Shown: piece after piece, positions 3,940 to 31,091 of the stretch
Position numbering within the stretch: the stretch's first letter is position 1
How the letters are laid out: each line of letters begins with the position of its first letter
Assembly (NCBI GenBank): GCA_021234155.1
Contig: JAJEKV010000011.1
Location: forward strand, 8,045,132-8,109,131
Source: Isoetes taiwanensis
Taxonomy: Eukaryota; Streptophyta; Lycopodiopsida; Isoetales; Isoetaceae
Length of the DNA: 64,000 nt
Direction of reading: 5' to 3'
Made by a program: the position numbers and the translations under genes
The notes under the pieces: generated by a model
The model's input: the letters and a program-made list of their open reading frames with translations, nothing else
Database searches by the model: none
Told to the model about the DNA's origin: nothing

Positions 3940-4178
3940 ATGACGCGCACCAAAGCGTAACGCTTCGACTTCCTCGACAAAGGCGAAAAGCTTGCCCGGA
4001 GGCCAAGGGACGTAGAAGGAAACAAGAAGAGGAGAGGGCGAGCGAGGCGGGGAGGCTTGGGGTCAAGAAGCGACGAGCGCGAAAGCTGGTCCAACATTTT
4101 GAAGACTCAACAGCCTACACGATTACGCCAAGGGAGTCGGTCATATCAAAGGAGAGCCTTATTAATTTAAGTAAATGA
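3940..4178 (+). pseudogene. Remnant of retrotransposon histone H3-like gene
   Basis: The frame opens with ATG and reads MTRTK, as in the H3 N-terminus (ARTK), then breaks within two codons. The frame that follows is open to a stop at 4176-4178. It starts with a Lys/Arg/Glu-rich linker (GRRRKQEEERASEAG) and ends with KLVQHFEDSTAYT, which matches KIVQHFEDSTACT in the histone fold of the complete gene at 26649-28787. The first helices of the fold and the normal H3 C-terminus are absent, so this copy cannot form a nucleosome core. Its value is that it shows independently that H3-derived coding sequence belongs to this retrotransposon family. The start break involves a CAG-like triplet and could be a sequencing fault. 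Confidence 0.7.
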
Positions 4179-4374: not shown

Positions 4375-4523
4375 CATCTTTGTGAGACCATGCCCCAAAA
4401 GTGCCCAAAACTGCTCCAAATCGATCAAATAAGGGGTCCATTACGCCTAACTTCGGACGAGATAAGTAGGATTAGACCCTTATATCACCCAAATTGGACA
4501 AGTTTAACCCATTTTGAGCCAAT

Positions 4524-4589
4524 GTCTCTGCGTCGCGCCGAGGACAGATTTTGAGATTCTCAAAATCGGGTGGGTGCAATGTGTGAGAC
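4524..4589. repeat. Conserved palindrome, copy 2
   Basis: The inner arms GATTTTGAGA and TCTCAAAATC are intact; the left outer arm is eroded (gtctctgcgt) and the right arm reads gtgtgagac. It lies 215 bp after copy 1. The spacer resembles the spacer between the copies at 26246 and 26445, read on the opposite strand. Confidence 0.8.
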
Positions 4590-5375: not shown

Positions 5376-5698
5376 GAAGACATCGAGGTCCCAGCCAATG
5401 CACAGACAGACAAGGAGAGGAGACCGAAAAGGCAGACCCAAGAGAGGGAAGCACAACGACAAACACCTCAACCGACAAACGAGTAGAACAGGACACCACC
5501 GGCCTATCATCAATCTTCATCAAATGGGAAGAATATTTGGTAACCAACGGCATCAAGAATTTTCTAGGTGTCAACCTCCCGGCTACCACGACGAGGTCAC
5601 ATCAGAAAGAGGATCTCGACGCCTTCACCAACTCGACGCCCACGAGTTTCAAATGGAAGAATGCAAGGCAGCAAATTACAGGTGCAGGAAGACGTTAG
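5376..5698 (+). pseudogene. Possible gag-like coding remnant
   Basis: A frame of about 107 codons is open from after a TGA near 5373 to a TAG at 5696-5698. The second half has protein-like composition, including GLSSIFIKWEEYLVTNGIKN followed by FLGVNLPATTT, in contrast to the low-complexity frames that overlap it. The position, after the H3-like remnant and the palindromes, is where gag lies in the related - strand element. I cannot match it to a named gag family, and no zinc knuckle is visible. Another 218-codon frame overlaps it (5374-6030), but its composition (R/H/Q/T-rich) looks like a shadow. Confidence 0.3.
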
Positions 5699-6732
5699 AC
5701 ATCGATGCCGCGTTAGCATCACGAGATAGGGCCAGAGGGCATAATCTTCCGTCGAGGAGAGAAGTCATGGCGACACAGGAGCGTATAGAAACCGGAGGGA
5801 AGACCACCACGACCTTGCAGCCCAGCAGCTCAAGCGAACGTCATGCAACGTCAACAAAAGGAGCAACCAAGCTAAGCAACAACAAAGCACCTAAGGCTAA
5901 TCAGGACAAGCTTCCAGCTCCCTTGCACCAGCAGAAGAACTTTCATCGGTTCCAAAAAGTAGGAGACCACGAGAGAGAGGAGACGCATATCAAGGAACAT
6001 CGCCGACTCGAAGGCCTATATCAGCACTAGGGGCAAGATCAAGGAGGAGAATATTCAGCTCGAACAAGAATTCCGGACCCAGAAACACCTAGAAACCAAA
6101 GGAAGGACGGCTTTACTACGTCAGCCAAGGAGTGCGAGACTCGAATGGTTGGGACCCAAAGGACGGAGGAGACGACCTAGCCAGCAAGTACAAATCACGC
6201 AAAGGCGACCAGAAGGAGCTATGGTAGGTATAATGGAGATGACCACACTTCCAGGCACAGGAGAATCACCTCGAAGTGAAGCAAAGCCCAAACAACGAGT
6301 CGACTCGAGGAAATTCAACTGCGGAGGAATGACATTGCACGCCTCACCGACCACATCTCGAGCCGAAGACATTCAAGAATGCCCGACCGCGCAGCCAGGT
6401 GACCCTACTCAAAAGCGATCAACGGCACCGCGAAATCAGCAATCTTACAACGACACACCGCATGTAGGGGCGTGAGCGGTTACGCATTCCTCGCGAATTT
6501 TAACATACACAATAAGGAGGAGCATCTTTTTTCAAGGGATCACATCGACGAACACTCTTCGCAACTTGAGGTGATCAGCTCGGATCAGACATGAAGCTCA
6601 ACAATAGTAGCAGCATCTCAAGAAACCCCGGAGTCAACCTGAACGAAGAAGATGCAGCAAAACCGAAGAATCAAACGCGATCAAGGAAGGGAAAACCTAG
6701 AGGAGTATAAACATTTAAGTAGATCTTCGTTG

Positions 6733-6760
6733 AAAAAAAAAAAAAAAAAAAAAAAAAAAA
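6733..6760 (+). repeat. A28 homopolymer
   Basis: Twenty-eight consecutive A residues. It could be the tail of a retroposed insertion ending here, but no flanking duplication was recognised. Confidence 0.9.
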
Positions 6761-9656: not shown

Positions 9657-9678
9657 AGATAGATAGATAGATAGATAG
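9657..9678 (+). repeat. (AGAT)n microsatellite
   Basis: About five and a half perfect AGAT units. Confidence 0.9.
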
Positions 9679-10351
9679 CTCAGGAGGCCTTCAACGTGGG
9701 AGACCGACATGATAGCTAACTACACCAACGAAGTGGAGCAAAACCATGAGAGCAATGCAACGACCAAGTCACCTCCAAACTACTCGACGCCGGCTCAATG
9801 AGTGGATGCGTTCTAGCCTTAGGTAAGGCATGCGCATGTATTATAAGCTTTAATGTGTCTTATTGATAAGTTAAATATAGATCCTAATAACTGCATAGAA
9901 ATTGTTGTACGTATATGTATCATAGGGAAATAAGTTAAATAACAACGATAATGTGAGGTAGCATGTTAATTAATCCTTCGCAAGGATGCAATTCCTTCCA
10001 AGGATAGCTATAGGTCCTTATAAATATAAATAGAAAATAGAATTCGGATATACTTAAGTGCATCTTAGGGATATACTTCCAAGGGTAATGTAGGACCCAA
10101 GGAAGAGAATAAGAAGCACATCTAATTCTTGTGTATGATAATTAAAACCCTGTCTATAATACAATAGGTCTAAATCAGGGTTATTGTTTAAATAATTGCG
10201 ATCTAAAAGTCGTTAAATATTGCAAAGATTAGAGTAAATATAATGGTACTATCGAAGTAATGTATCCGATAATATGATAATGTTAATTCATAAATATTAC
10301 CTTAGGGTAATTATGTTAATCACATGCATTAAAGGAGCCGGCAAAAATCGG

Positions 10352-11537
10352 AAACGGGCATGTCGATTTGTGTAGATTAATTCTATGTGTAGTTAAGATT
10401 AATCTGGCATGCAACCTATGCTTGGTATGGATTGCATGCGTTGTTAAAATGATGAGACCACTACGGTGATCTCTAGGGCATGGTGTAATGTCAATGTAGG
10501 CATGACCGCTGTTTTCGCTTGGACGAGTGGAAGGTAGATTAGAAAGTCTACTGGTCCCCGCGAGGAAGTAGAGCGACCTCGAGAGAAAGGAGGTCATTGA
10601 GGAATGCATTGATAGGAAAAAGCACCTCTAGCCCCATATATGCTTTGATAGGAGGAATATCGGCCTTCACGCCCCATATATACGGGAAGGACCTATCCTC
10701 CATTTGGGCAACTAGGGTGTAGGCATGAGGCATATAGGCATATATTTGTCTCCACGGCCATAATGGAAGATTCACCCTCTTCCCTCTGGCGGAGATTAGC
10801 CACGCATCCATGTAGATAGGTGGGGTGGTCACCATATAACCAAAATTTTATTAATAATTAATAATAGGTAGTGGTCGACTCGCAGGGCCAATAGAGCCCG
10901 GGAGGGCAAGGAGGTCGAACCTCTGAAGGCTTGCAACACAAATTTTGTTATAATGTGTTGCAAGGGATGAAGGGTACCTTAGAAGTGTAAATTTTGTATG
11001 AAATTGATAAACTTTGATAAACTTAAATGTTGTATTAAGTAAGGTTAATAATTACCTTATGCGTGGATTAAGTTATGATGTGATAAGTTAATTGGATATG
11101 AAATAGTAATGTCTTAAACATTACCTTAGAGTAATTCTAATAATTAAGATAGTAAGTATGTAATTATAGATATTGTAAAATTAATGCAGGATTTTAAAGG
11201 TCGAAGACGCAACACAAATTTTGTTGGAATGTGTTGCAAGGAATGAAGAGTACCTTAAATAATAATTGTATATGAAAGTGTTAAATTGTGATAAACTAAA
11301 TGTTGTGATAATAGAAACTAATAAGTACCTTGTTTTAGTAGAAGTTACGAATTGACAACTTATTTGATAATGTAATGGCGTAATAATGATTTAAAAATAT
11401 TACCTTAAGGTAATCGTAATAAATGTGTAAGTATTATTATAGTATATCGTATGCATCGGGTTGATTGCGGGGTTAGGAAGATTCAAGGTGGGGAGACCCC
11501 GATCTTTGCGGGCGACATCATTTCAAGGTGGGGAGAA
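10352..11537 (+). other. Gypsy 3' noncoding region with ~280-bp tandem units and PPT
   Basis: From 10352 the sequence matches 18893-19781, which in the other element follows the chromodomain stop. A block beginning caacacaaattttgtt recurs at about 10929 and 11212, giving two diverged ~280-bp units. A third partial unit ends near 10320 (attacctta). The last 14 bases, caaggtggggagaa (11524-11537), form the polypurine tract directly before the LTR TG. Confidence 0.75.
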
Positions 11538-13217
11538 TGTGACATTCGGCCACGATACGGTCCCGGGGCGGTATCTTTGTCTTGCCTAGATCACGCGTAT
11601 TAACGCCACCCCGACGCGTGTGTCACGCGGCGTGTAGCCAAGTGGGTAGCCCCTGGGGGCAACTTGCTAAGAATGTGCATTAGTATTAATGTGCACATTT
11701 TCCAATGTACACATTAATGTGGGCACACATTTCCATGTGGCCACTTGATGCCAAGTGGGCCATACCCAAGTGTGCAATTAATGTGCACATTTTCCGATGT
11801 ACACATTAATTGGGTGCACACATTTCCATGTGGGCACATTTGGCCACCTAGCCATTAAAGGCAAGTGGGCCCATTCCCAATTATCCCACATGCCTAAAGG
11901 GGATAATTGGAAACCCTAGTCAACCCCTTGTCTATTTAAGTAGGAGAACCCTAACTTGCCCATTTTCGTTTCTAGGGTTTTAGAGCTCTCGTTTTGACCG
12001 CCCCAAGGGTCAAAATCGCCTCCCACTCCCTCGAGAGAATTGCATCATTAGTTTTCCTTGATTCGAAAGCATCTCCAGGATGGTCGAGCTCTCAGTCAGG
12101 GAGGAGGAACTCAAGGATCAGTATTTAGGCAATTTAGTAGTCTAAACCCCATTTCAGCCATCGAATCAAGTGAGGTTTAGCCTCTTAAATTGCCCATAGC
12201 AGCCTCCCTCTAGATCTCTAGATAGCAGATTCTAACTAAAGAACCCTAACTCTATGATATAGATTAGATCTAGTTCTTTAGTTCTCTCGTGAAGTATATG
12301 GATGATGTATCCCTATGAACTCCTTGTATTGGGAAGGGGGTAGAGACCTAAAGCTTTGTAGTTGATGCTCCTAGAGTAGCCTCTCTAGCACACTTGTAGA
12401 TTCGGCCTGTACAAGAGCCACACACCGGTTGTGGGTGAAGGGGCGGGACCGGCTAAGAAGGAGGTTCATGTCCCCGACTCTTGAACGATCCCTCCGGGTG
12501 TGTAAAGCCTACCGGGGATCATTGTGACTAGGTCTAATGGCTTGCCACCGAGTGCGGGCAAGGAATGGGCCTCGACACCTGGGGTGGGGTTCACCTTCCG
12601 ATTGGGTTCGGTCAACTCGGGCGGTGGCCCTCTAGTCACCTTGAGTCGGCATGTAGATCTCCGAGGGGGAGTTCCTACCGCCCCATCGGGAACCGGGAGA
12701 TGAAACCCGGGAATAGCCCTTTTGGCTATGCATCCGGCGGCTTCTGATGAGCCAGTCCCAACACTTTTCAGCCTACTCGCAAAGTGTGCACGGGAGGAGG
12801 GGCGGATGGAGTGGACAACCCTATGCCATGTTCTTATGCCACCAAATCCATTGCCATGAATTCAATACGCAATGAATGAACGGAGACCCAAGCCGTCAGT
12901 CATCCCTTTGAGTCGAGCCTTGGGTAGGATTCCCTATGTGATGTCTTGATCTTTGTCTATGCAGGATATGTGGAGGACCATCCGCCGTGATGGTCATATG
13001 ATGTTGATGTATGTACTACTGACATGTATGTTTATGCTTCCGCAGCTAGGTAGGCCCTGAGGGAGACGGGGTACAATGACCCCTTCACTCTTCCCACTGG
13101 AACCCGTCGCGGTTGCAGTGTCATGTGAAGGGCCCCGTATCGGCATGGAGCTGGTATGGGGGAAGAACTCCTGTTTGTATACGGTGAGTGCACCGTATGC
13201 GAGTAGGGGACGTCACA
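11538..13217 (+). repeat. 3' LTR of the + strand gypsy element
   Basis: The 1680-bp LTR begins TGTGACATTCGG and ends GACGTCACA, with TG/CA ends and a polypurine tract directly upstream. The U3 part carries repeated attaatgtgcacatt/acacattaatgtg blocks that are partly inverted relative to each other. A TATA-like tctatttaag lies near 11929. Matching LTR sequence occurs at 16949-18439, 19782-19942 and 29428-31086. The flank after the LTR starts ttgtc; a matching left duplication was not found, in line with a missing 5' end. Confidence 0.85.
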
Positions 13218-13600
13218 TTGTCCTTTGAGCTTTGTGGTTTTAGGTTCCAAATGATGTTAGGGAGGAAATGATGTTAAAGTTTTGTTGGAAGTCAAAGCCG
13301 TGAACACTTATGTACTTTTATTAGATAGTTTGATGACTTGCACACTTAGGAGCATTTACTTTCTATTGTATTCGCATGCTTCCATAAAATTGTTTGGGTT
13401 ATTTCTCATTCAGACATGCAGTTGCATTTTGCTTAGCAGGTTGTTCTTAATCAATAGGGTGCGGTTTATGGGTTGTAGTTGCATTTTTGCTTACATCCGT
13501 GTCAATTGTTGACAATTTATGATGAAAGTAAGATGCTTTATTCTCCCTTCTAATTCAATTTTGTGCTTTTTCTTGCAGCCGGTTTTATAATCGAGATTTA
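13218..13600. other. Host flank between LTR and repeat copy B
   Basis: No gene is recognised. A pyrimidine-rich stretch ending tttcttgcag (near 13579) would serve as a splice acceptor leading into repeat copy B; the exon is unidentified. Confidence 0.4.
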
Positions 13601-15185
13601 GGAGAGGTGCCAAATATTATTTCTTTCCAAAGAGGAAGGACCATCCACAACCTATCAAGATATCAAGAAAGACCTCCAGTTCTGTAGAAGTTCAATTTAG
13701 TCATATGTGCCCTTAAGTTTAGCTGGCAGATGCAAATTCATGCAATTTCCTTGGATGTGATTGTTTGTAAGACTTATGTCATTTTTAATAGATACAACTA
13801 TTATTCCCTGTGTATTATTGCTCGTGCCATTTATTGCACGGCTTAATCCAAGTTAGTAAACTGGATGACAAAGCCACCATATTTGTAAATTGATGCAACC
13901 CGACATGCAACATGCACAACACTAATTTCACCAGTCACGCGAGCTTCAAAACAGTGTTTTTTGTATTTTCTTTGACGAGGTTAAGTACTTTCTTCAAATT
14001 TGGACCATGGGACACCAAGCCCTGTTATGACAATGGTTGGTCTTTTAGTTTCAGAAAATTTTTGCTTATGCAAGTTAGACCAGTGTTGTATATCTACACA
14101 GTATAGAGCGGCAGAAAAAATTCATGATGACTGTGATTAGTCAATGGATTTATAAACATTCGAATGCACTGAGACAATAAAAATGATGCATAAGGATGCA
14201 ACCGTTAAAATGTAAGATTGGTGCACTCTCTTAGAACAAGTTTGTTGATCAGCTCAAGGTGAGAACAAGTATGAGAACATAATCTGTTTTATGTACTCCC
14301 CTCATTTTGAGTATCTAATGACTGATATTTAGAACAAGTTTGTTGATCAGCTCAAGGTGAGAACAAGTATGAGAGAACAAGTATGAGAACATAATCTGTT
14401 TTATGTACTCCCCTCATTTTGAGTATCTAATGACTGATATTCATGTGCATTTTGTATCTCCGTATTAAGTGTTCAATAAAATGCATTGACAAAATTTGCT
14501 TTTGCGATAGAGCTCGGGCTATTTGGAATGTCACAAAGAGGTTATGTATTTGAGATAGCACAGGCAAAAGTCTTTAAATGTGCTGCCATGGAACATGTAC
14601 TATGGGAAGCTGTATAATGTGCACCATGTCTGTGCATCCAGATGGTTAATGTGACAGGGCTGGTTCTTTCCAAATTGTATGGTCCAGAGATGCACCACTA
14701 GAAGCATCTTTCCTGTTTTGATCTATTGGAGAAATGTATGTCTACAAGCACAAGAATCGCTACACTTTTTTGCTACTTGAAATGAAATGCCTTCACATAG
14801 GTAAGTGATTGAATGCAGAAGCAGATTCTAAATGACAGGCTATTGAGGCACATTGATAAGGATGGGGAGGTAGTAAAAAACAATGTTTGGATGCCATTCG
14901 AACTATTATTTGACTGAACTAAAACTTGAATGGCATAAATGGAGATATAGGAACCTCATCTACTGGTGCTAGAGTTTCTTACAGTCTTTCCATCGCCATG
15001 GACACGGTGGAGCCATCTTAACTTTCAAAGAACGTGTGCATGTTTCACATAGTATGTCTTTTTTATGTTATATTGACATGTGGGAATATAATTGGAATGG
15101 ATTGTGTACTTTATTTGCTATTTCTACAATAGAGCATTAAGAATAAAAAAGGAGATTCTACAACGGAAGCAAAATGGACATGTTT
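13601..15185 (+). repeat. 1.55-kb dispersed repeat, copy B
   Basis: Direct-orientation partner of 1985-3541. It contains an extra short tandem repeat (gagaacaagtat twice near 14361-14385) and an AATAAA at 14475-14480. Together the copies bracket the + strand gypsy element. They show none of the LTR hallmarks (no TG/CA ends, PBS or PPT), so they look like duplicated host sequence. Confidence 0.85.
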
Positions 15186-16943: not shown

Positions 16944-16948
16944 CTATA
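16944..16948. other. Target site duplication CTATA (left)
   Basis: Five bases directly before the TGTGACG terminus at 16949 match the five bases after the other end (31087-31091), as expected for Ty3/gypsy integration. Confidence 0.8.
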
Positions 16949-17822
16949 TGTGACGTCCCCTCCTCGTATACGGTGCACTCACCGTATACAAACAGGAGTC
17001 CATCCCCCATACCAGCTCCATGCTAATACAGGGCCCTCCACATGACACTGCAACCGTGACGGGTTCCAGTGGGAAGAGTGGAAGGGTCATTGCACCCCGT
17101 CTCCCTCAGGGCCTACCTAGCTGCGGAAGCGTAAACATACATGTCAGTAGCACATACATCAACATCATATGACCATCACGAAGGATGGTTCTCCACATAT
17201 CTGCATAGACAAAGATCAGCACATCACATAGGGAATCCTACCCAAAGCTCGGACTCAAAGGGATGATCCGGCGGCTTGGGTCTCGAGTTCATTCATTGAG
17301 GCGCATGTAATTCATGGCAATGGATTTATCGGCATATGAACATGGCTTAGGGTTGTCCACTCCATCCGCCCCCTCTGTGCACACTTTGCGAGTGGTCGAA
17401 AAGTGTCGGGACCCGACCGTAGCCGCACGGATGCATAGCCAAAGGGCTACTCACGGGTTCATCCTCCCAGTTCGATGGGGCGGTAGGGATCACTCCCTCG
17501 GGAGATCTACATCGCGACTCGGTGACTAGAGGGCCACGCCTGTATTCGACCGAACCCACCGGAAAGTGAACACCACTTCCGGGTGTCGAGCCCATGCCTT
17601 GCCAAGCACGCGGTGGCAAGCCATTGGACCTAGTCACAATGGTTCCTTTAGGCTTTACACACCAGAGGAACCGTTCAAGAGTCAGGACATGAACCTCCTT
17701 CTCAGCCAGTCTGGCCCCTTCACCCACATCCCGGTGTGGCTCTTGTGCACAGGCCGAATCTACAGTGTGCTAGAGAGGCTACTCTAGGAGCATCAACTAC
17801 CAAGCTTTAGGTCTCTACCCCC
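16949..17822 (-). repeat. 3' LTR, terminal half
   Basis: Begins TGTGACGTCCCC on the + strand and matches the reverse complement of 12342-13217 and also 29428-30292. It stops at the ctacccccttcc boundary, where the LTR middle appears in the opposite orientation. A 126-codon open frame on the - strand here is LTR noise. Confidence 0.85.
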
Positions 17823-18439
17823 CTTCCCACATTAATGTGGGCACACATTTCCAAGTGGACACTTCATGCCAAGTGGGCCACACCCTTAGGTGCAATTAAT
17901 GTGCACATTTTCCAATGTACACATTAATGTGGGCACACATTTCCATGTGTGCACATTTGGCCACCTAGCCCTTAAAGGCAAGTGGGCCCATTTCCAATTA
18001 TCCCACATGCCAAAAGGGGATAATTGGAAACCCTAGCCAACCCCCTTGTCTATATAGGGTAGGAAACCCTAACTTGCCCAATTTTCGATTTTAGGGCTTT
18101 AGAACTCTGTTTTGGCTGCCTCAACAGCCAAAACCGCCTCCCGAACTTCGCACGGGAGAATTGCATCCTTAGTTTCTCTTGATTCGAGCGTTTCAGCAGG
18201 ATGGTCGAGCTCAGGTCAGGAGGAGCCCCTCAAGGATCAGGTATTTGGCCAATTAGATAGTCTAAACCCCATTTTAGTCATTGAATCAGTAGGTTTAGCC
18301 TATTAAATTGCCCATAGCAGCCCTCTAGATCTCTAGATAGCATATTCTAACTAAAGAACCTAACTCTATGTTGTAGATTAGATCTAGTTCTTTAGTTCTC
18401 TGTGAAGTATATGGATGATGTATCTCTATGAACTCCTTG
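17823..18439 (+). repeat. 3' LTR, middle segment, inverted in place
   Basis: This matches about 11720-12340 of the + strand LTR in direct orientation, opposite to the LTR half on its left. Its subfamily-specific wording (aagtggacacttcatgcc) matches the 5' LTR at 29428-31086, so it belongs to the same element. It includes the TATA-like tctatatagg near 18049. It joins integrase coding sequence abruptly at 18440. Confidence 0.8.
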
Positions 18440-18910
18440 TATTTGGCTCAAGATCAAGGTGAAGCAGGCGAAGCTCAGGATCGGGAATTGCAAGAAGCTT
18501 GCTCCAAGGTGGGCTGGACCTTTCAGAATAGTCAAGAGAGTAGGTAATCAATCCTACAAGCTAGACTTGCCAGCACACCTAAAGATTCATAAGGTCTTCC
18601 ACGTGAGTTTGTTGAAGAAGCATACTCCAAATCCAGACGAAGTCTTGGACACTCCAACGTTGTTGGAAATGATGGAGGAGCAATTTGGAAATAGTTCGTA
18701 ATTGATTCTTGATAAAGCTTTCAAGAAAACGAGGGAGATCGAGAATTCCTCCAATTATTTGGTCAAGTGGAAACACTTACCCGGTGGAAGACGCGACGTG
18801 GGTACTTAAGAAAGATTTAGTAAGCAAAGATCCACGGTTTATGGAGCAATGGGACGGCAAGGTCATCTCAGAAGAAATCGCAGCAGGAGGCATGTCGATT
18901 TGTGTAGGTT
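18440..18910 (+). pseudogene. Gypsy integrase C-terminus and chromodomain (inverted segment)
   Basis: The frame from about 18443 reads LKIKVKQAKLRIGNCKKL, then the GPF/Y-type block APRWAGPFRIVKRVG, YKLDLPAHLKIHKVFHVSLL and a linker with DEVLDTP. After a one-base break, a chromodomain follows: IENSSNYLVKWKH, then PVEDATWVLKKDLVSKDPRF. These are the last parts of a chromovirus pol protein; the chromodomain steers integration toward histone-marked chromatin. It directly continues the protein truncated at 19943 on the other strand (ending KVGDDV), so one coding sequence has been split by an inversion. The break at ttacccggtggaag lies in a CCG/CGG context. Confidence 0.85.
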
Positions 18911-19781: not shown

Positions 19782-19942
19782 TGTGGCGTTCGGCCGCGAT
19801 ATCGCCCGGATAACCGTATCGCCACGCCAATACCGCATTATTACGCCCTACGGTGCCGCGCTAAGCGTGTAGCAGTGGGTAGCCCTAGGGGGCAACTTGC
19901 CAGAAATATGTGCAACTATTAATGTGCACATTTTCCAATGAA
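19782..19942 (+). repeat. 3' LTR, first ~160 bp (inverted segment)
   Basis: It starts TGTGGCGTTCGG right after the polypurine tract and runs to cacattttccaatg, where it is cut. The next LTR bases are found at 17823. Beyond 19942 the sequence switches to - strand integrase coding. Confidence 0.8.
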
Positions 19943-22709
19943 ACATCATCTCCAACTTTGAACTCTCTTACTGTTCGATGCTTGTCGGCGATGCTCTTCT
20001 GACGACTTCTTGCTGCAAGCAGATAACCTCGAACTTCTTCCACAAGCTGCTGCATATCGGCCAACATCTGGCTGCGAAACTTCCACTTTTGACACGGGGT
20101 TGTGCCAAGTGTGCGGAGTTAGGTAATCGATAGCGTAATTGATCATAAACGGCGACATTTGGGATGATTCCGCTTGGTGCTATTATAGGCAAACTCCACC
20201 AAGTGAATAAATTCTTCCCACATACTTTGCTTATTTCGGACATAGTTTTCAGTAGCATGTCCTCTAAAATCTGTTGGTCCGCTCCGTCGGCCATCCGTCG
20301 AGGATGATATCTCAGTGCTCATGGATAGCAAAATGCGGATTGTCGCAAAGAGGTCTTGCCAAAAGGCTCATGAACCCGGATCCGCAATGAGGAGATGATC
20401 TCCCTTGGCATGCCATGAAGCTGAAGAAGATCTCTTTGGTGAAGAGCTTTCTTTGTATCCATACGCAAGGCACAAAATGTGCCATCTTAGACAACTTGTC
20501 GACCACTACCATCAAGGCATCCTTCCCTCTTTCGCTGTTCTTGGGAGTCCCGTAATGAAATCCATCCGATTACCTCCCACTTAGCGTTTTTTTGGCACTG
20601 AATGAAGCTGCTCGCCTTTGTCGGCCGACATGGTGGCATTCCTTGATGTAGCGAGCCACACCTTCTTCATTCGGCCAATAATAGGCTGCTGCGTACTTTG
20701 AAATATGTTTTCATGAATCCATGATGGCGGCTATTGGGGCTGTTGTAGCGTGTCGTGGAGGATCAATTTCCTTACACACGATGATTGGTGCACGCACAAC
20801 TTGTTCTTATGGTATAACAGGTTGCCTTCCTTCTTAAAATGTTTAAAGGCTTCCCGCTCCTTATCGTTCTAGCCTCCCTAGAGACTTGCCCATACTTCCT
20901 TGAAATCCACATCCGTTGGCAAGGACTCTTCAATCTTCTTACCAAAGTCACCGGAGATCGTCGAAATTGCATTGCAATGGACTCTAGTTGTCGGGGATGC
21001 CTTGAAAGCATCCGCTACCACATTGAGCTTCCACGGCTTGTAGACTATATCAAAGTCGTACTCTTCAAGGAACTCCATCCACCTTCTCCGCCTCGGGTTG
21101 AGGTGTGGTTGCGTGAATACATATTGGAGGCTCGGTGGTGCGTATCCAACTGGAACTTCCTTCCCAAAAGGTAGTGCCTCAAATTCTTAATGCCCCGACA
21201 ACCGCAAGCAATTCACTCGTCGTGGGTAATTGGCGGCGTTCGGCGTCGTTCATCTTTCACGGAATCATACGCTACCACGCTCTTCTTGCATAAGCACCGC
21301 TCTGTAGCTATCTTACTTGCGTCCCGTCGCTACAAGCTTATCTTTTCTCGGGTCCGGCCGAAAGGTTAAGATCGGGTTGTTGTTAAAGCTTCCTTCAACA
21401 ATTCAAACCACCTTGGGCTTTCTTGTGCCAATGCTCTGCCCCAATCTTTCACTTTCTCCGTCCTCGTCAAGTCTGTTAACGGGGGCGCTATCTTAGCAAA
21501 GTTCTTCACGAACTTCTGTGCGTACTCGCTAGGGTAGAAAACCGACTTCATGCATTCTTTGGGTAGGCCAGCGAATGGCGGCTTCAATCTTTGCGGGGAT
21601 CCGTCGAGATGCCTTCTGGCGAGATCACATGACCTAGATACTCCACCTTCTCGTTGCGGTGGCGCCCGACAACTTGGCATGCATAACCGGTGCCTCTTCA
21701 ACTTCTCTAGCACTCTTCTCAAGTGTTGTACGTGCTCTTCAAGGGATCTGCTATACACCAAAATGTCATCAAAGAAAACAATCACAAAGGTGTCTAAGAA
21801 CTCTCTGAAGATGTCGTTCATGAGCCTCATGAACGTTGCGGGGGCATTCGATAAGCCGAAGGGCATTACCGTGAACTCATAGTGCCCATACCGCGTTCTG
21901 AAGGCGGTCTTATGGATATCTTCTTCTTTAATCCTGATCTGATGATAACCTGACCTTAAGTCGATTTTGGAGAAGATCTTTGCACCTTGGAGCTGATCCA
22001 TCAAGTCATCTGATCTGGGAAGCGCGTACTTGTTCTTAATGGTGTGCTTGTTCAACTGCCTATAGTCTATGCACATCCTTAAACTGCCATCCTTCTTCTT
22101 AACGAAGAGAATGGGCGCTCCAAATGGCGAAACACTGGGTCTAATGAAACCTAGGTCAAGCAACTCCCCGCAAGAATCGCTTCTTTAGTCGAGGCAACTC
22201 TGCGTTGTCATTCTATATGGAGCCTTGCTTGTTGGCTTTGTTCGGTTAAGTGCAATCTACTTTTCGACTCCTATAAGGAGGGGAGCTGCTTGATCTCATC
22301 ACGGAAAGAGATCATGGAACTCCGTGATCAGCTTAGCTACTTGCCCGGCAACTTGCTGAGCACCTTGTCTTCTTTGCTTCCTTCTTAGATTCGGCTCACT
22401 AATCTCAAGCTTGAAGATGTATGCCACTTGCTCACTCTTCTTGATGCACTTGAGCGGCCGGCTTAGAAGACATGCAGCGCATGATGGGAACAACTTCTTT
22501 ACTGTTATTTTGATGATCTTGCCGTCCGTTGGGAAGGTCACTTTCCGCTTTCCACGATCGATAATGGCCCTGGCTGGCCCAAGGTACTCCATTCCTATGA
22601 TCAAAGTCGTTGCTTGCCAATGCCCATTACTTCTGCCCCATCGGATATTAATCCGGCAAGTCGATGTGAAATTAATTCTCTTGCCCGCCGATCGCCTCCA
22701 CTGCACCAC
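19943..22709 (-). pseudogene. Gypsy pol: protease end, RT, RNase H, integrase core
   Basis: From the 5' side: TTLIIGMEYLGPARAIIDRG (protease C-terminal ILGM-type block, ~22600), then RT with [46 protein letters not shown] and the catalytic FFDDILVYS (22163-21650). RNase H/connection follows with HYLLGRKFQLDTH and EYDFDIVYKPWKLNVVADAF (~21130-20990). The integrase core reads ALMVVVDKLSKMAHFVP (~20510) and NYVRNKQSMWEEFIHLVEFA (~20240), with KSIADKHRTVREFKVGDDV just before the cut at 19943. The order RT-RNase H-IN is Ty3/gypsy type. At least five frame shifts interrupt it. The missing C-terminus lies at 18440-18910 on the + strand. Confidence 0.85.
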
Positions 22710-22949
22710 TTGCTAAGACAAGCGGGTCTTGGCTTTGACTTTAGCGGCTTCAACTTCAACATTTGAACCATGCGGGGGGATGCAAAGTTATGGCTACTTC
22801 ACGAGTCTATCAAGACTATGAAGGACTTGGCCTTGGCCTTCCCTCTTGTGGAAATTACTTTATCTTGGCTCTCTTGCTTTCTGTATCTATTGCGGCAAAG
22901 ATATGGCACTCACCCCGGAATGTAGTCAGCGGCCTTCCTGCGCCGTCGT

Positions 22950-25949
22950 CGTCCGGGGACGGGATGTCCCACTCTCCCAACTCCGCTAGAGCCGCACTCA
23001 TGGCGTAGGGGCGGTTTGCTGTCCCTATGGCTGGCTGGAAGCACACGAAACCGCATTTGCTTTTCTATGCACTCACTGCCTCTTTTCCTTGGGCATCGCG
23101 CAAAAGGATCGCCTTTGCTTTGGAGTAGTTTGACCCCTCGCTTGTCCTTGAAGGACACTGCTTCTTCTCTGCTGTTTCCCCGGTTTCCACCATATGGGGC
23201 TCTAATTTGGACTGGGATTGCTGCCCTAGGGCTATAGCTTTCATGCCGCCTTGCCTTTATCCCGAAAATCGCTGCATACGCCCTTTATTCTGAGGTCCGA
23301 CCCACCAGCAAGCTTATAGCCTTGGACTACGCGCCCGATCGTCCTAGGGTTTATTGCTCTCACAAGCTTCCCGGATCTCCTCATTGACCCTTCAATATAG
23401 CTTTCTCGCGCATGCTTCTCCCCAACCCGGCACATCGACCTTAGTCTCATGAATTCCCTCGTATATTTCGGGTTGATTTGTTTCCCTGTTGGAGCCTATA
23501 GAACTGGCATCATCTTTGGACTTATGTTCCCTTGGGGACGTAATGGCGGCGAAGGCTTTAGCAAACTTCTGAACTTACAAGCATCCCCTTAAGCCATGTG
23601 CCTTTGCATAACCCTTCCACCAGATCCGTCGCGGCTCTCCTTTCAAGTTGGTACATTTGCAAGCGCCTTTGTCTTTATCTTTCATGCCATAAGCATTGCC
23701 GTATTCACTCATTTTGTCGAGCCATGCCTAAAGCTTCTAATCGACTGTTCTCCCACGAGCTTGTTTCGATTCAGGGCCTTCCATGCATTGCCGGTCGCGG
23801 GAATCTACCTTCTTCGGTAGTCGGAGGCCACGGTATCTCTTTGTAGATCCATCACGGGGGTGTTCCTCGCCTTCCCTCTTGGTGTTCCTTTGCCTTCCAT
23901 CATTTAGGTCCGGGGCGTTTCTTCCTCTTCCTCGGTCCGGTCGGTCAGTCCCGAACTTGAGTCCGGAAGATTTCGGTTGGAGGATCTCCTTCTCTTGCTC
24001 CTCTTCTTGTCCCTTCGGCTCGAGCTGGTGCTTGCAACAAGCGGCGTTGCCACCGAACCCACTCCCTACTTGCGGCCGGCGGCAAAGGCCTTTATACGCC
24101 TCAGTGCTGTCCTCATCTCGGGATATCTCCTCCTCTCGGGGTCATTGGGTTCCATATCTTCAAATAGGTTCCTTGCTTGGGTGGTGGTGGGGTCTGTTCT
24201 TCCCTAAGGTCTCGCAGTTGTCGTTCCCCTGCGTTTAGGCTTCTAGCTGCATACACAAGCAATTCATGGCTATATGGTTAGTTTCATTTGTTCTCTTGCA
24301 TTGTTTATGTTTGTTGGTATAATTGTGGGGCAACATTACATCAACAAAACATTTAAAGTGCAACAGAATTGTATTTATATATTATATAATATTTTAGTAC
24401 AAAAAGTCTCCGGGATCAAGAGTCTAACTAGTCTTGAAATCGCCGGTAAGACGGGTTGTCTTCAAGGAACTTCTTAACTTGGGCCGTCCCTACCGAAAGT
24501 GACCCAAGTTCTCGATGATGCTTGCCGACGAACCTCCCCTAAAGGCTCTCACCAAGTCTTCTACCCCGCGGTCGGATGTAAGGGCATGATCCGCATAATC
24601 TGCTTTGGCGCGTCGATGGGGTATGGCGAAGTCGAAGAGGTCAAGTGCCATTGCCCTCTTGACTAAAGGCGGCATAGTCGGCGTTTGTTGCTATTCGAGC
24701 ATGCACGCGAAGCACGAAGTGCAATCGGCATGAACACTCCTTCTTCTCCTGCGGGACTGAACTTGCGATTGTATTCTTGCTACTCTCCCATCAATGGCGG
24801 CGGCAAGTAGTACTGGCGACTTGTCGTTATTAATGTGGCAGAAGCTTCTAAGCTTGTTTGGCCTCCCGCTCGCGCTGCGTGCTTTCGTCGACCTCGATTT
24901 GGTCGGCTCACGTAGTCTTCAATTGTCGCGGTCGAACATACGGGGTCGATTCCTTCTCCTCTTGGGGGGTGGTGTGAAGGACTTCGGCATTAGGATGCTT
25001 CGTGGTCTTCCACGGATCCCCATCCGTTCTTGGAGGCGAGGAACTCCTCCTCTGTTGGCAGCTCCGCTCGTCCATCATTTGCACGATCTTCTTTGTAGGC
25101 TGGATATCGGAGGTCGTTTTTTCCCCTGTGGCAGGTGTCGGCCTCCCCTCACTTGAAGCGGGAAGTCCGAGGCTCCCCGGACGATGAAGTCGTCCATGTC
25201 GGTCGCCGCGGCTGGTGGAGCAATTAAGTCCAACACGGCTCCCTCTCCCCTCGCATTCGGGGAAGGTTACGGATGTCAGTGAGGAGTAGATACTCCTCCG
25301 TTGATGATGATAGGGGCTAGGCTTGTGGGATGCCTAGCCCGAGTGGGGGAACAACCCCGATGCCTCAGCGGCTCTTTCGAAGTTGATCAGCTCTGCTCTG
25401 CTTGGCCCGTTCCCGATGCGGTCGAGCTCAGGTGTATCCCTCATCGTCAGGCCCTCTTCTCCTTCTCTTGCTTCTTGTTCCTTGTTGATTGTAGAAGCAT
25501 TTGCTCTTCCCTCTTACCTGCTTTGCTATGGGGTCCACCTCCATCGGAGGAATAGAGGTTGCCCCCATTGGGTTTTCGGTGCGGTGGGATAAGAAGATGG
25601 CTAGGGCTGCGGTAAGAGAAGTACTTGGTCCTATTGGCTGTCAGGACCATGTAGTCGCGACCCTCTGCGCCTTGTTGGTTAAGTACTTGGCGATGTTGGG
25701 GACATCACCCAAGGCTGCTTGAAGGGATGGGCGGGGAACGAAGTATCCTATGCAAGGGGGGACTTGGACAAGGGAGGGTCCTACCCTAGCACGAAATTCT
25801 GCTAGCACCCTTGCCTATATCTTTGGGGTTGCATTTAGCGTAGCTTGGATGTCAATTTCTTTCCCAAAGATTTGGAAGATGTCGTTGACATCCGCCTCGG
25901 CAGCATGGGCACTGGCGTTGTACCATCGCCCGAAATCAGCAGTGGCCAT
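22950..25949 (-). pseudogene. Gypsy gag region
   Basis: The ATG at 25949 (- strand) starts MATADFGRWYNASAHAAEAD, then VNDIFQIFGKEIDIQATL. A TAG interrupts it, then ARVLAEFRARVGPSLVQVPL follows, and after a shift SLQAALGDVPNIAKYLTNKA. Farther on come DLFDFAIPHRRAKADYADHA with FRGGSSASIIENLGHF (~24670-24490) and ERRAATDLVEGLCKGTWLKG (~23650-23590). This is the capsid-type structural region by position (between the H3-like gene and protease) and composition. I see no CCHC zinc knuckle. Frame breaks are frequent. A short AT-rich block (24245-24405) within it looks foreign or intronic. Confidence 0.6.
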
Positions 25950-26245
25950 TGACCTAGCAAAGAAGGGAGTATCAAACGGATCGGGGGCCGCCGGTGGTGG
26001 AAGATCGCCCTAAGCGGTGGAAACAAATTTGCGGGGTGCTAAATGAGAAATGGGGGACTTATTTATAGAATTGGGGAAAACCCTAATTTTTGGGTGACCT
26101 AGAATTTACTGAGATTAGGCAATTCTGATCTATTAAAGGATGCAATTGCAAGTTTGAAGACTATTCCTAGGGTTTGAGCATGCTAAGAACAACTACTGAA
26201 CCTATTGTACAATTTGAAGATCATCTAGTGAAGAAATGGTACGAG

Positions 26246-26312
26246 GTCTCACACGTTGTGCCCAGCCCGATTTTGAGAATGTCAAAATCTGTCCTGGCGC
26301 GACGTGTGAGAC
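26246..26312. repeat. Conserved palindrome, copy 3
   Basis: GTCTCACACGT and ACGTGTGAGAC-type arms around a GATTTTGAGA core (one mismatch in the right core arm). It lies between the H3-like gene stop (26649) and the gag start (25949). Confidence 0.85.
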
Positions 26313-26444
26313 ATGGGTCCTAATTGGGCTAGGCTTACTCAATTTAAGTGATGTAAGGCTGTAATTCCACTAAACTCATCGAGTTAGGCAGAATTGACCC
26401 CTTATTTGGTCGATTTGGAGTTGTTTTGGGCATTTTTGGGCATG

Positions 26445-26504
26445 GTCTCACGTTTTTGGCCAGATTTTGAGAATCTCAAAATCGTCTGCTATGACGTGTG
26501 AGAC
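26445..26504. repeat. Conserved palindrome, copy 4
   Basis: Intact inner arms GATTTTGAGA and TCTCAAAATC with outer gtctcacgt and acgtgtgagac. It is about 145 bp downstream of the H3-like stop codon. Confidence 0.85.
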
Positions 26505-26648
26505 ATCGTCTCAATTTTGCTCAAAGCTCCAATTTAACTAAAACAAAAGCTAGGGATCGATATCTTAACTTATTTAGACAAGGTTTGACACTTTATTTAC
26601 ACAAAAAATCCCTTATATTAACAAAATTTTTCAGTTATTTACAAAATC

Positions 26649-28787
26649 TCAAGGGTGTTCTCCCTTGATGTGCCTGGCAAGATACATATCCTGCCTCATG
26701 AGGGTAACCCTCTTCGCGTGCACCGTGCAGGCCGTTGAATCTTCGAAGTGCTGCACTATTTTTGCTTCTGCTGCCTCCTGTAGGCACAGCAACATTTCGT
26801 CGGTTACCCACATGTCCGTGTTGTATTCTTGCATTACCTCACGAACCAAAGCGTTGCGGCGCAGGGAATCAAGAGTCAAGTAACTCTTCCGAAGTGGCGG
26901 ATCTCCTTGAGGGCTCTGTCTTCCAGCTTCTTCTTCTTGCCCCGCTTCTTACCTGGTGCTCGGGGAGGCTTGGGCCTGGGTGGTGGTGGCTTCAGATTCT
27001 GCTTTGGGGGTACTCCGCCTTCGACTGTCCTCACCCGATGCTCCTGGAAGTAGGCGTTGTATGCCTCCCACTTCTCCATATAGGAGTTGTGCTCTCTAAT
27101 CCTCTTCGATAGACCTTTACGGGGTCTATCACATATACCCTCACTTGAGATTGGCGGGGCTTTAACCTATCCCGTCCCGGAAAAGGTGGGGCTTACGCCG
27201 GTATCCGCCTCCCTCTGTTCTTGGGCTACCTGCTCTTCCTCTTCCCTCTGACCGGGGGTTTTGAAGAGCTTTCCCGTCGCGCCATGCCGCGTAGTCTTCA
27301 TCCAGAAGTCGTCGATGGTGGCGGGGTCTCTCCTCTCCGTGACCGTTGATGGCCGGGGACCTTTCGCTTCGACCTTTACCGGTTTCCTTTTGCACGCCTT
27401 CGGCTTTGGCCTTCCTCTTCTTGGACCATTTGCGTTGTGGTGGTCGTCTTCTCGACTCTTTTGTCCTCTGCTCCCGGCGGCGCTCTTTGGCTTCATACTT
27501 GTAGACGAAGCGTGCAAGGTCGGCCTCTTCCTCCGGGGTGAGTTCCCGCAGCTGCTGCTCCTCTCTTCCTTGCTCTTCCTGCAGGTGGATATCAGCTTGG
27601 GGTTGCTCCTGGCCTGTTGATTGGTCCGCCTGCTCCCGCTGCTCCTCCTGTGGGTTGGTGTCCCCCTGAGGTTGGTCCTGGGCTATTGGCTGCCCTACCT
27701 GCTCCCACTGCTCCTCCTGCGGGTCATGGAAAAAATTAGTGGCTATTAATAGCCAAATGACGATTTTTTAGGGGGTCTAGACAATTTTTGCGGCGAATCT
27801 TATGAAGGGAGATTTCTTTTAAAAAAATAAAAAATAGCCATAGTTAAAAGAAGTATTCCATTATTTGTTTAGGATTAGCCAAACTATTTTCCCCTTTTTC
27901 TTCAAATAAAAAGGGATTAGCCTTTTTTTATATTACAACAGTTATATATTAAATCATTAATAGCCAAACAAAAATTAATTCGTATTATAGATTTTTACAC
28001 ATCTCCAACTGCCATCATCAATGATAGTATTTTTTCAAACTATGAATTTCTATTACATATATCACATATGCATCTTCAAAAAGGAATTATAAGAGATGGC
28101 TAATATCCCTTTAGATGCCTGAGTTAGTTACATAACATCTAAAGGGTTAGAGATAAGTGCAATTTGATCACCATATCTAGAAAGTGTCGTTGCATTGAAT
28201 GTAGTTCAAACTATGGATATTATAAGCTTTTTTAAATTTTTTTAATATTATTGTATCTTCCTTGATTTTTTATTATTAATTACAATATATCCAAAGCTAT
28301 AGAATTTATATTTTTTGCTTTGTCCAGTTAGAAAAAAATAGCTAAGTGAAATTTTCTAGTACTTAATTCAAAAGTTTTGCCAAGTCCAAATACATAATGA
28401 TAATATTAATTTTAGCCAAATGTATCTCATAAAATACTATAAAATTTTGAAAAATAGCCAAACCATTTTATATGAAAAAATATATAGTATGCTTAATTTT
28501 TTCCCTGCTGCGGGTTGTTGTCCTCCCGGGGTTGCTCCTGCTGCTCCCCGCTTCTTCCTTCCTCTTGTGCAATCTCCTCGAGGATTTGGTGCATGACATC
28601 CGGCCGGTCGTCCTCTAAGAGCTCTGTATGGTCGCTCCGGTCCGAACCTGCTTCCTCATTTGATTTTAAGATTCGCCTTCACGGAGAAAGGCGTTCTTGA
28701 AGATTCTCCGAAGATGCGGAAGCCGGCGTATTTGGAGGATTCGCTCCCACGAGGCTTCCGAGCAGTCTGTTTTGTAGGGGCCATCAT
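26649..28787 (-). CDS. Histone H3-like protein encoded by the retrotransposon
   Basis: The ATG at 28787 (a second at 28784) opens MMAPTKQTARKPRGSE. After the Met this copies the H3 tail ARTKQTARKS, with R2 and S10 changed to P. A one-base shift near 28630 leads into an acidic Gln/Glu-rich linker with repeated QEEQ units. Then come a basic stretch (RRREQRTKESRRRPPQRKWS) and a Pro-rich block (PPPPRPKPPRAPGKKRGKKK). The C-terminus is a histone fold: alpha-N RALKEIRHF, then LLIP, RRNALVREVMQEYNTDMWVT, LQEAAEAKIVQHFEDST and VHAKRVTLMRQDMYLARHIK, with the stop placed as in H3 (TGA 26649-26651). Loop 1 has canonical H3 length, unlike most CENH3. Frame breaks near 28630, 27165 and 26875 and an AT-rich insertion (27729-28503) interrupt it. 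The assignment to H3 is firm; function is unknown. Confidence 0.85.
27729..28503. mobile_element. AT-rich non-autonomous insertion in the H3-like linker
   Basis: About 775 bp of very AT-rich sequence interrupts GC-richer Gln/Glu codons. The ends carry an 11-bp inverted repeat, ggaaaaaatta at 27729 and its complement at 28493-28503. The motif tagccaa(a) or its complement recurs at least seven times (e.g. 27756, 27878, 27965, 28412, 28457), like subterminal binding sites of DNA transposons. No open frame is present. No clear target duplication was found, so an intron-like or other origin is not excluded. Confidence 0.5.
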
Positions 28788-28972
28788 TTTACGGTTAAAT
28801 TCGATCGCTTGACTAAAGCCGGAAGATCGCCTTAGCGATCCACGGCGAAGTTCTAGGGAAGAACACGAAAAATGGGAGGGGTCTAGGTCTATTTATAGGG
28901 GCCAAATTTTAGGTCAACTTTTAACTACCTTTCTGGGTTGTCTAAAGCATCTAAAACACCTAATTAAGCAAG

Positions 28973-29040
28973 GTCTCACATGTTGTGCCCAGCCCGATTT
29001 TGAGAATCTCAAAATCTGTCTGGCAGCGACGTGTGAAGAC
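28973..29040. repeat. Conserved palindrome, copy 5
   Basis: Same composite structure with intact core arms, located about 190 bp upstream of the H3-like start codon, between it and the primer-binding site. Confidence 0.85.
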
Positions 29041-29161
29041 ATGGTGAAGCCCACTATTAAATTAACATGTAACATGCTAATTCTACTGATTCTTAGCTTA
29101 AATTTAGAATTATCAAGTTATTTTCTTGTAATTTACAACTTTTTGGTGTCAAAATTTGAAT

Positions 29162-29412: not shown

Positions 29413-29426
29413 AGCTCACGATACCA
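29413..29426 (-). promoter_or_regulatory. Primer-binding site, tRNA-iMet type
   Basis: On the - strand, two bases after the LTR end, the sequence reads TGGTATCGTGAGCT. The plant initiator-Met primer site is TGGTATCAGAGC. The only difference is CAG to CGTG, the same scramble seen between the repeat copies elsewhere in this window. Confidence 0.75.
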
Positions 29427-29427: not shown

Positions 29428-31086
29428 CGTGGCGTCCCCTCCTCGTATCACGGTGCACTCACCGTATACAAGCAGGAGTCCATCCCCATACCAGCTCCAT
29501 GCTAATACGGGGCCCTCCACATGACAACTTGGCAACGTGGCGGGTTCGATTGGGAAGAGTGGAAGGGTCATTGCACCCGTCTCCCTCGGGGCCTACCTAG
29601 GCTGCGGGCGTAAACATACATGTCGATTAGCACATACATCAACATCATATGACCATCGAAGGATGGTTCTCCACATATCTGCATAGACAAAGATCAGCAC
29701 ATCACATAGGGAATCCTACCCAAGGCTCGGACTCAAAGGGATGCCCCACGGCTTAAGGTCTCGAGTTCATTGCGGTGAGAATTCATGGCAATGGATTTGG
29801 GCGGCATATGAACATGGCTTAGGGTTGTCCACTCCATCCGCCCCTCTGTGCACACTTTGCGAGTGGTGCGAAAAGTGTCCGGGACCGAGCCATGGGATGC
29901 ATAGCCAAAGGGGCTACTCACGGGTTCATCCTCCCGGTTCGATGGGGGGGTAGGGATCCTCCTCGAGGAGATCTACATCGACTCCAGGTGACTAGAGGGC
30001 CTGCGCCCGTATTCGTGAACCCGGAAAGTGAACACCACTTCACGGGTGTCGAGCCCATGCCTTGCCTTGCGCGGTAACGGTGTAAGCCATTGGACCTAGA
30101 ATGCAATGGTTCCGGTAGGCTTTACACACCGGAGGAACCGTTCAAGAGTCGGGACATGAACCTCCTTCTCGGCCGGTCTGGCCCCTTCACCCACATCCCG
30201 CGGTGTGGCTCTTGTGCAGGGCGAATCTACGGTGTGCTAGAGGCTACTCTAGGAGCATCAACTACCAAGCTTTAGGTCTCTACCCCCTTCCCAATACAAG
30301 GAGTTCATAGAGATACATCATCCATATACTTCTTCGAGAGAACTAAAGAACTAGATCTAATCTACAACATAGAGTTAAAAGGTTCTTTAGTTAGAATCGC
30401 TATCTAGAGATCTAGAGGGCTGCTATGGGCAATTTAATAGGCTAAACCCTCACCGATTCAATGACTAAAATGGGGTTTAGACTATCTAATTCAACCAAAT
30501 ACCTGATCCTTGAGGGGCTCCTCATTTTGAGCTCGACCATCCTGGTTTGGCCGCTCGAATCAAGAGAAACTAAGGATGCAATTCTCCCAGGCAGAGTCTG
30601 GGAGGCGGTTTTGGCTGTTGAGGCAGCCAAAACAGAGTTCTAAAGCCCTAAAATTGAAAATTGGGCAAGTTAGGGTTTCCTACCCTATATAGACAAGGGG
30701 GTTGGCTAGGGTTTCCAATTATCCCCTTTTGGCATGTGGGATAATTGGAAATGGGCCCACTTTGCCTTTTAAGGGCTAGGTGGCCAAATGTGCACATGAA
30801 ATGTGTGCCCACATTAATAATACATTGGAAAATGTGCACATTAATTGCACCTAAGGGTGTGGCCCACTTGGCATGAAGTGTCCACTTGGAAATGTGTGCC
30901 CACATTAATGTGTACATTGGAAAATGTGCACATTAATAGGTGCACATATTTCTGGCAAGTTGCCCCTTAGGGCTACCCACTGGTTCTGCAGCTAAGCGTA
31001 CCGCGTCGTCGGTAGGCGTTAATGCGGCGTGACAGCGATGCGGTATCGATCCACCGGGGCGGTATCTTTGTCTTTGGAAACGTACA
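29428..31086 (-). repeat. 5' LTR of the full-length gypsy element
   Basis: This 1.66-kb LTR matches the 3' LTR pieces at 16949-19942 and the 11538-13217 LTR. Its outer end reads tgtacgtttcc on the - strand and abuts the CTATA duplication. The outer ~60 bp differ from the other LTRs: a block ggggcggtatctttgtctt lies in the opposite orientation relative to the copy at 11568-11588. U3, TATA and a GA-rich downstream part follow in normal order. Confidence 0.85.
30683..30692 (-). promoter_or_regulatory. LTR core promoter TATA box
   Basis: On the - strand the LTR reads ctatataggg, followed about 15 bp later by aaaccctaac. The equivalent position in the other LTRs is TATA-like as well (11929, 18049). 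It would drive the genomic RNA of the element. Confidence 0.5.
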
Positions 31087-31091
31087 CTATA
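31087..31091. other. Target site duplication CTATA (right)
   Basis: Matches 16944-16948 and directly follows the outer LTR terminus (taca, ending at 31086). Confidence 0.8.

Follow-up and report, generated by a model that had tools for sequence, protein, structure and literature searches.

Plant chromoviruses, as described in the available portions of PMC6317226 and PMC3350952, are Ty3/gypsy elements whose integrase carries a chromodomain, with the clades Tcn1, Tekay, Reina, Galadriel, CRM and Chlamyvir. Extra ORFs occur in plant LTR retrotransposons, according to the portions available of PMC6317226 and PMC7264820. In orchids, a Gypsy lineage carries AlkB, a captured host-like enzyme with a proposed role in host surveillance against transposable elements; the screen of 121 angiosperm genomes in the same article recovered 15 unusual domains, and no histone is among those named in its section 12 (PMC9289625, in part). 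Histones are also encoded by DNA viruses, as bracovirus H4, singlet H3s, NCLDV doublets and nudivirus Orf1, the singlets being thought to enter host nucleosomes; the available part of the review that covers them has no occurrence of "retrovir-", "retroelement", "Ty3" or "reverse transcri-" (PMC9145170).

The elements of Isoetes taiwanensis described here resemble plant chromoviruses in their gag-PR-RT-RH-INT-chromodomain layout, their LTRs, the 5-bp target duplication (in the window) and a TGGTATC-type PBS, but carry between the PBS and gag a histone H3 ORF and two further ORFs for which no Pfam match was found (two copies of ORF2 and one of ORF3 scanned). As with orchid AlkB, an extra gene is fixed in a Gypsy lineage, whereas the gene captured here is a core histone. 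As with the viral histones, the gene for a host-like core histone resides in a selfish element, and the available text of PMC9145170 describes nudivirus Orf1 as a long protein that likewise ends in histone folds; those carriers are, however, DNA viruses, whereas the H3 carrier here is a reverse-transcribing element. With host H3 and CENH3, the element proteins share the histone fold, the interface residues and, in three of the families defined below (I, III and IV), the ARTKQTARK tail; unlike them, they are element-borne and multicopy, and in family I a linker of about 340 aa stands between tail and fold.

The initial annotation of this DNA had stated that no described LTR-retrotransposon lineage was known to carry an H3 gene. 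In agreement with this, no histone-encoding retroelement was present among the open-access PubMed Central matches listed, judged mainly by titles and the beginnings of abstracts. The word "histone" occurs once in the available portion of PMC6317226 and never in that of PMC7264820, and has no occurrence in the available main text of the I. taiwanensis genome paper (PMC8566536) or in the available part of the I. sinensis paper (PMC10541799). The lineage, a chromovirus with a captured core histone gene, is real, amplified and constrained, and is undescribed in the open-access literature searched; we regard the existence of an H3-carrying chromovirus lineage as practically certain.

The window element and its decayed H3 gene

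The window, i.e. the whole stretch of 64,000 nucleotides that was analysed, contains an element reading on the minus strand from 31086 to 16949, which had been annotated as a full-length Ty3/gypsy chromovirus with an H3-like gene between PBS and gag. The CTATA duplications, the LTRs and a PBS-like sequence adjoining the 5′ LTR are all recognisable, and the order gag-PR-RT-RH-INT is followed by the tblastn pieces, with RVT_1 and SH3_Tf2 also detected by Pfam. The element is a degenerate chromovirus. Its LTRs, whose inner edges were placed by eye, measure 1.5-1.7 kb and are similar in two blocks. The features of the window are as follows:

4035..4160 (+), possible H3-fold remnant of a second element, weak (31% over 42 aa, E 3e-4 and 0.007)
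11641..13218 (+), LTR of the second element, aligned part, reversed relative to the main element
16944..16948, left target-site duplication, CTATA
16949..18446 (-), 3′ LTR (16950-17829 collinear with the other LTR, 88.7% identity; 17828-18446 inverted, 93.0%)
18441..18656 (+), integrase C-terminal SH3 (Tf2-1-like) domain (PF24626, 1.8e-21), in a block inverted relative to the element
18657..18870 (+), chromodomain remnant in two frames, inverted block (tblastn query: the L017 chromodomain recognised by Pfam)
19933..20787 (-), integrase zinc, core and C-terminal pieces, several frames (tblastn)
21052..21407 (-), RNase H pieces (tblastn)
21369..22184 (-), reverse transcriptase, open piece (Pfam RVT_1, 2e-35)
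22533..22873 (-), protease pieces (tblastn)
23395..23727 (-), gag capsid remnant (tblastn, 5.8e-14)
25611..25970 (-), accessory ORF2 remnant (79% to the ORF2 of L039, tblastn)
26652..26920 (-), histone H3 fold (alpha-N to end) in two frames (Pfam, PDB match, tblastn), 26652-26948 being one open piece
26975..27713 (-), linker of the H3 ORF, frameshifted pieces (tblastn)
27715..28532, AT-rich segment of about 0.8 kb inside the H3 ORF, missing from the relative L033
28505..28784 (-), H3 ORF start in two frames, with the MAPTKQTARKPRGSE tail and the beginning of the linker (tblastn)
29414..29426 (-), PBS-like TGGTATCGTGAGC, adjoining the 5′ LTR on its inner side
29428..31086 (-), 5′ LTR
31087..31091, right target-site duplication, CTATA

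No Pfam match was found for the protease open piece 22604-22798, for the gag open pieces 23244-23495 and 23578-23727, or for the short integrase-core pieces tried.

The H3 tail and fold both lie at the place proposed for the gene, but in the window copy the gene is not open. The fold was recognised by Pfam (PF00125, E=6.3e-15) in the open piece 26652-26948 (-), and its best PDB chains correspond to H3 (E about 1e-16). The tail, initially annotated as APTKQTARK, is found as MAPTKQTARKPRGSE at 28784 (-), and the linker rich in Gln/Glu, Lys/Arg and Pro that had been noticed between the two is also present. The remnant of the gene spans 28784-26652 (-) in several frames with stops. Because about 0.8 kb of AT-rich DNA interrupts its ORF, which is moreover spread over several frames, the window copy is a dead, decayed member of the lineage. 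The relative L033/L039 shares 86-89% DNA identity with it in aligned blocks. The AlphaFold model of the window fold was poor (pLDDT 52) and supports no reading.

Several other observations concern this stretch of DNA. Between 17828 and 19946, part of the LTR, the integrase C terminus, the chromodomain and the 3′ region have the opposite orientation, and one simple inversion is insufficient to account for it. A second degenerate element of the same kind lies in the opposite orientation at 4035-13218 (+). Short repeats centred on GGTCTCACACGTTGTGCCCAGCCCGATTTTGAGAAT, some of them inverted, are located at 4288-4592, 26243-26506 and 28968-29044 and flank the H3 ORF regions. Positions 1-2000 are extremely pyrimidine-rich (GC skew -0.74, AT skew -0.72), a direct repeat pair (1966-3532 and 13585-15157) shows 92% identity over 1.6 kb, and an inverted repeat pair (53210-53760 and 61947-62501) shows 74% identity over 0.56 kb. 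No tRNA or Rfam match was found in the 64-kb window.

H3-bearing families in the genome

A search of the genome (1,658,258,908 bases, 1110 contigs) with the Pfam Histone profile gave 8704 first-look candidates, 150 of which were scored. The best 15 of these cover profile positions 2-122, and the eight examined among them are ordinary H3. The remaining 135 begin at profile positions 4-25, many of them at position 20, with open frames of up to 494 aa. Fourteen long-frame loci chosen from these 135 (L009-L022) constitute family II, a sister group of the window type, in which the H3 ORF measures 444-494 aa from stop to stop in all 14 loci. Its fold is that of H3 (Pfam 3e-42 for L010, a IIA copy), its N-terminal domain differs and ARTKQTARK is missing. 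Eight loci with the N-terminus MPRFKL or a near variant form family IIA, and six with an N-terminus such as METPKQVYKRKPRHS form family IIB. Between the H3 ORF and gag, these 14 loci carry ORF2 (about 470 aa) and ORF3 (about 170 aa), and TGGTATC-type PBS sites are present upstream of the H3 ORF in 11 of them. In L017, Pfam detected Ty3_capsid, RVP_2, RVT_1, RNase H, integrase, SH3_Tf2 and a chromodomain (PF00385, 6.3e-8), so that both the Ty3/gypsy domain order and a chromodomain at the integrase C terminus are present.

Further copies of the window type with intact frames also exist. Searching with the window's own fold yielded eight copies of this family I (L031-L038; frames of 447-469 aa), with an open frame of about 440 aa. 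Six of the eight open frames begin with MARTKQTARKP; of the other two, L034 carries C in place of R and L031 is without the tail in frame. Seven copies accordingly show the tail MA(R/C)TKQTARK, then a long linker, then the H3 fold. The linker, of about 340 aa and rich in Q/E, K/R and P, leads into ALKEIRHFQKSYGLLIP...HIKGERP, and the fold of L033 was recognised by Pfam (8e-27). The tail does not directly precede the fold, S10 and the H3 residues up to about position 44 being missing or replaced. From their reading frames, the open-frame members of the lineage are predicted to encode proteins of about 440 aa with a C-terminal H3 fold, a naturally occurring set of H3 proteins whose large internal insertions selection has preserved.

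Four tail matches not near the listed family I folds were chosen by their tail (L060-L063). Each begins with MARTKQTARK, the next residue being V, P or F, after which come other linkers and other H3 folds. We classified L060, L061 and L063 as family III and L062 as family IV, with downstream H3 folds that differ from that of family I. None of the four is intact, the break in L060 being a single in-frame stop; the fold piece of L060 (family III) has a Pfam E value of 4.5e-19.

The association of the fold with the element was also observed in a blind set, for which the ORF2 of L018 served as query: among 5578 first-look candidates, 117 were scored and the 20 best taken (L040-L059), L040 being the query's own locus and L052 overlapping L019. 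An H3 fold lies directly upstream of ORF2 in 20 of 20 loci (19 of 19 without the query's own). A single match covers at least 90% of the fold in 17 of the 20, L050 with a stop and L049 with a shifted end among them, and the fold is broken in the other three. This co-occurrence rules out a separate H3 insertion unique to the window locus. In families I and II, the H3 gene is located between PBS and gag, and other genomic copies thus carry the fold where the window does, as a fixed, amplified and constrained part of the element.

The pattern MARTKQTARK (at most one mismatch) has 669+741, i.e. 1410, matches in the genome, host H3 genes included, and the pattern TVHAKRVTLM from the family I fold (at most two mismatches) has 1191+1193, i.e. 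2384, whereas whole-genome controls with the reversed patterns gave none for either tail or fold. Host histone genes are rejected as the source of these counts, 15 full-length H3-like matches being present among the 150 scored. From 100 tails and 87 folds among the matches listed, 20 tail-fold pairs lie within 3 kb; all are on the same strand, tail first and 1087-1268 bp apart, and no other arrangement was seen. Histone matches that occur by the hundred in such a genome should not be equated with host genes in annotation.

Constraint on the fold and the cassette boundary

The dN/dS ratio across copies, computed by the pooled Nei-Gojobori method, is 0.02-0.04 for the fold, or 0.08 in the blind set. 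In detail, the fold has 0.029 in family I (n=8), 0.036 in IIA (n=8), 0.021 in IIB (n=6) and 0.011 in host H3 (n=7), with dS of 0.4-0.8 in the fold sets, the non-blind sets being chosen by fold score or frame length, which biases dN low. The blind estimate, which covers IIA only, is 0.080 (16 near-full copies) or 0.087 (all 19, query excluded). Values are higher for the N-terminus plus linker (0.23 in family I, 0.125 in IIA and 0.147 in IIB) and for the linker of the blind set (0.255 in seven near-full copies or 0.219 in 19), while the ORF2 of that set, itself picked by ORF2, has 0.107. The first 12 residues of family I have 0.047 (n=7, L031 left out).

For gag-pol, the values of group A, which come from copies among L009-L022, are 0.018 for CA (n=6), 0.030 for RT (n=5), 0.026 for RNase H (n=5) and 0.035 for INT (n=4), with a few stops. 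The histone fold of group A is therefore held about as tightly as the enzymes. Group B gag-pol shows 0.09-0.41, with stops, the values being raised because the backbones decayed.

All 22 open-frame folds keep R52, R69, R72, R83, K115, R116, V117, T118 and M120 (H3 numbering), as well as C110, H113, A114, D123, L126 and I130. We take these to be positions of contact with H4, H3 and DNA, i.e. dimer and DNA-contact residues. Family IIB is identical to H3 at every position of the residue table, IIA has R64 (seven copies) or Q64 (one) and C63 in one case, and family I departs from H3 by R49K, R63P, K64R, K79N, F84V, L109A and K122Q. In seven family I copies, six of the nine tail residues show codon variation, and the only amino-acid change is a single R2C; P10 and the stretch SSSAS (15-19) are just as invariant as the tail. 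The families differ in the residue that follows K9, which may be P, V or F.

Between IIA and IIB, RT (0.66 vs 0.68) and RNase H (0.86 vs 0.81) have dS values similar to those within A, and CA (1.24 vs 0.95) and INT (0.81 vs 0.56) somewhat higher ones, whereas in the fold, ORF2 and the N-terminal domain synonymous sites are saturated between IIA and IIB (pS 0.81-0.87), with a dN of only 0.11 in the fold. Three of five IIB copies have an RT with 97-98% identity to that of L017, a IIA element, and the RTs of the others are 90% (partial) and 75% identical to it. At the DNA level, L014 (IIB) aligns with L009 (IIA) at 34-1378 on the LTR side and at 5135-9698, from ORF3 to pol; between about 1378 and 5135 similarity is limited to the fold (2980-3251), and the boundaries are sharp. 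For another IIB copy, L015, the alignment with L009 is limited to the fold and the part starting at 5145, which means that the two LTRs are different as well. On the simplest reading, the H3 and ORF2 cassette appears to have been exchanged between backbones. The family I RT (window and L039) is 80-83% identical to that of L017, and the family I fold is 51-54% identical to family II folds.

Possible roles and origin of the element histone

Few host proteins are as conserved as the core histones, whose tails are the substrate on which transposon silencing acts. If a retrotransposon maintains an H3 of its own under selection of about RT strength, this would be a direct counter-move in the silencing conflict, and the lineage would permit testing whether selfish elements rewrite the chromatin that silences them.

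The reading that we favour is that of an element-encoded H3 variant. A chromovirus lineage would have acquired a histone H3 gene and retained it, beside the accessory ORF2, in the interval from PBS to gag; the protein would be made when the element is active, pair with host H4 and be deposited in chromatin as an H3 variant, probably on the element's own DNA or at target sites. In family I, a short K4/K9 tail on a foreign linker would replace H3 residues 10 to about 44, leaving no K14, K27 or K36, and this altered tail would change either silencing of the element or the destination of the chromodomain integrase. Judged from sequence, we give pairing with host H4 followed by entry into chromatin an even chance. 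Incorporation of the protein into H3-H4 nucleosomes seems equally plausible and implausible and, were it to occur, the odds that the benefit lies in silencing evasion or targeting would be balanced as well. A fuller version, in which the element's own H3 variant forms element-specific nucleosomes with host H4 that mark, protect or target its own copies, and in which H3 plus ORF2 is a tradable module diversified into several histone types in one genome, is proposed tentatively, at somewhat less than even chances. The many copies of the element H3 and the strong selection on it suggest a genome parasite that uses the host chromatin machinery. Against a function of the tail in general, family II, the better preserved group, is without ARTKQTARK. 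The favoured reading is further weakened by the family I departures from H3 listed above and by P10 and SSSAS being as invariant as the tail, and a linker of about 340 aa may make the protein ill-suited to the ordinary nucleosome or to chaperones.

Alternatively, the fold could bind host H4 or nucleic acid and carry or compact the RNA or cDNA of the element, with nuclear entry via histone chaperones and importins and without lasting entry into chromatin. The position of the gene upstream of gag, a constraint in group A like that on gag and pol, the kept DNA-contact and dimer residues and the basic, K/R-rich linker would all suit such a particle or import function, which nevertheless leaves the conservation of H3 residues 1-9 in families I, III and IV unexplained and which we consider unlikely. 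The ARTKQTARK end might instead lure the writers and readers of H3K4/K9 methylation off the element, the fold serving mainly for stability or nuclear localisation. This is consistent with the low dN/dS of the tail in seven copies, with the excess of tail matches (1410, host genes included) over full-length H3-like ones (15 among the 150 scored), and with a position 10 that is P, V or F while positions 1-9 are constant. Such mimicry is improbable, however, for the fold is constrained at least as strongly as the tail and family II dispenses with the latter.

Concerning the origin of the gene, the fixed, amplified and constrained fold supports the initial proposal that the element captured an H3 gene, from a donor that may have been canonical H3 or CENH3 and in one or more events. 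The fold is 84% identical to host H3 in IIA, 87% in IIB and 57% in family I (one to three copies each). Against 5.8 billion proteins, in searches that reach only relatives with shared short exact words, the full-length IIA protein had 4494 matches, at least 120 of which carry ordinary H3 folds (88-98% identical to H3); neither the non-H3 part of the IIA protein (4064 candidates) nor residues 12-335 of family I (3966 candidates) had a match at E<=0.001. For the linker, growth within H3, as initially proposed, and the joining of an unrelated piece are both conceivable sources. A scan of viral contigs with the N-terminal part gave eight pattern matches, none of them confirmed.

Two separate captures, of CENH3 by family I and of canonical H3 by family II, by which the element would reach centromeres, would be compatible with the other readings. 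A first tree of 34 rows placed family I with provisional plant CENH3 sequences (95/90) and family II beside H3, and weakly rejected a single clade of I and II (p 0.047); the motifs ALKEIRHFQK, LLIP and RVTLMR also resemble Arabidopsis CENH3. When families III and IV were added, however, family I joined III, the plant CENH3s stood apart and one element clade was not rejected (p 0.093), while a tree without CENH3 put all element folds on one side (76/65), all these H3 fold trees being built on 89 columns. In addition, family I is without the longer loop 1 of the provisional CENH3 sequences, and none of the best 60 PDB rows for its fold is named CENP-A or CENH3. The CENH3 origin drawn from these provisional sequences and the first tree did not survive wider family sampling, and we consider it quite doubtful.

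Finally, a transduced H3 gene amplified by hitch-hiking and useless to the element would resemble the hundreds of host genes reported as captured by transposons in maize, rice and sorghum (PMC7264820, in part) and would agree with the broken window copy, but such a passenger pseudogene is rejected by the fold dN/dS (0.02-0.09 with dS of 0.4-0.8) and by IIA and IIB folds still about 84-87% identical to host H3 despite saturated synonymous sites between them, and is extremely unlikely.

A last observation concerns the chromodomain of L017, which, inspected by eye, carries I and L at the positions of Y24 and Y48 in HP1 and retains W45. Group II chromodomains resemble this pattern, and their partner is not known according to the available part of PMC3350952. 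The partner of the L017 chromodomain might conceivably be encoded by the element itself.
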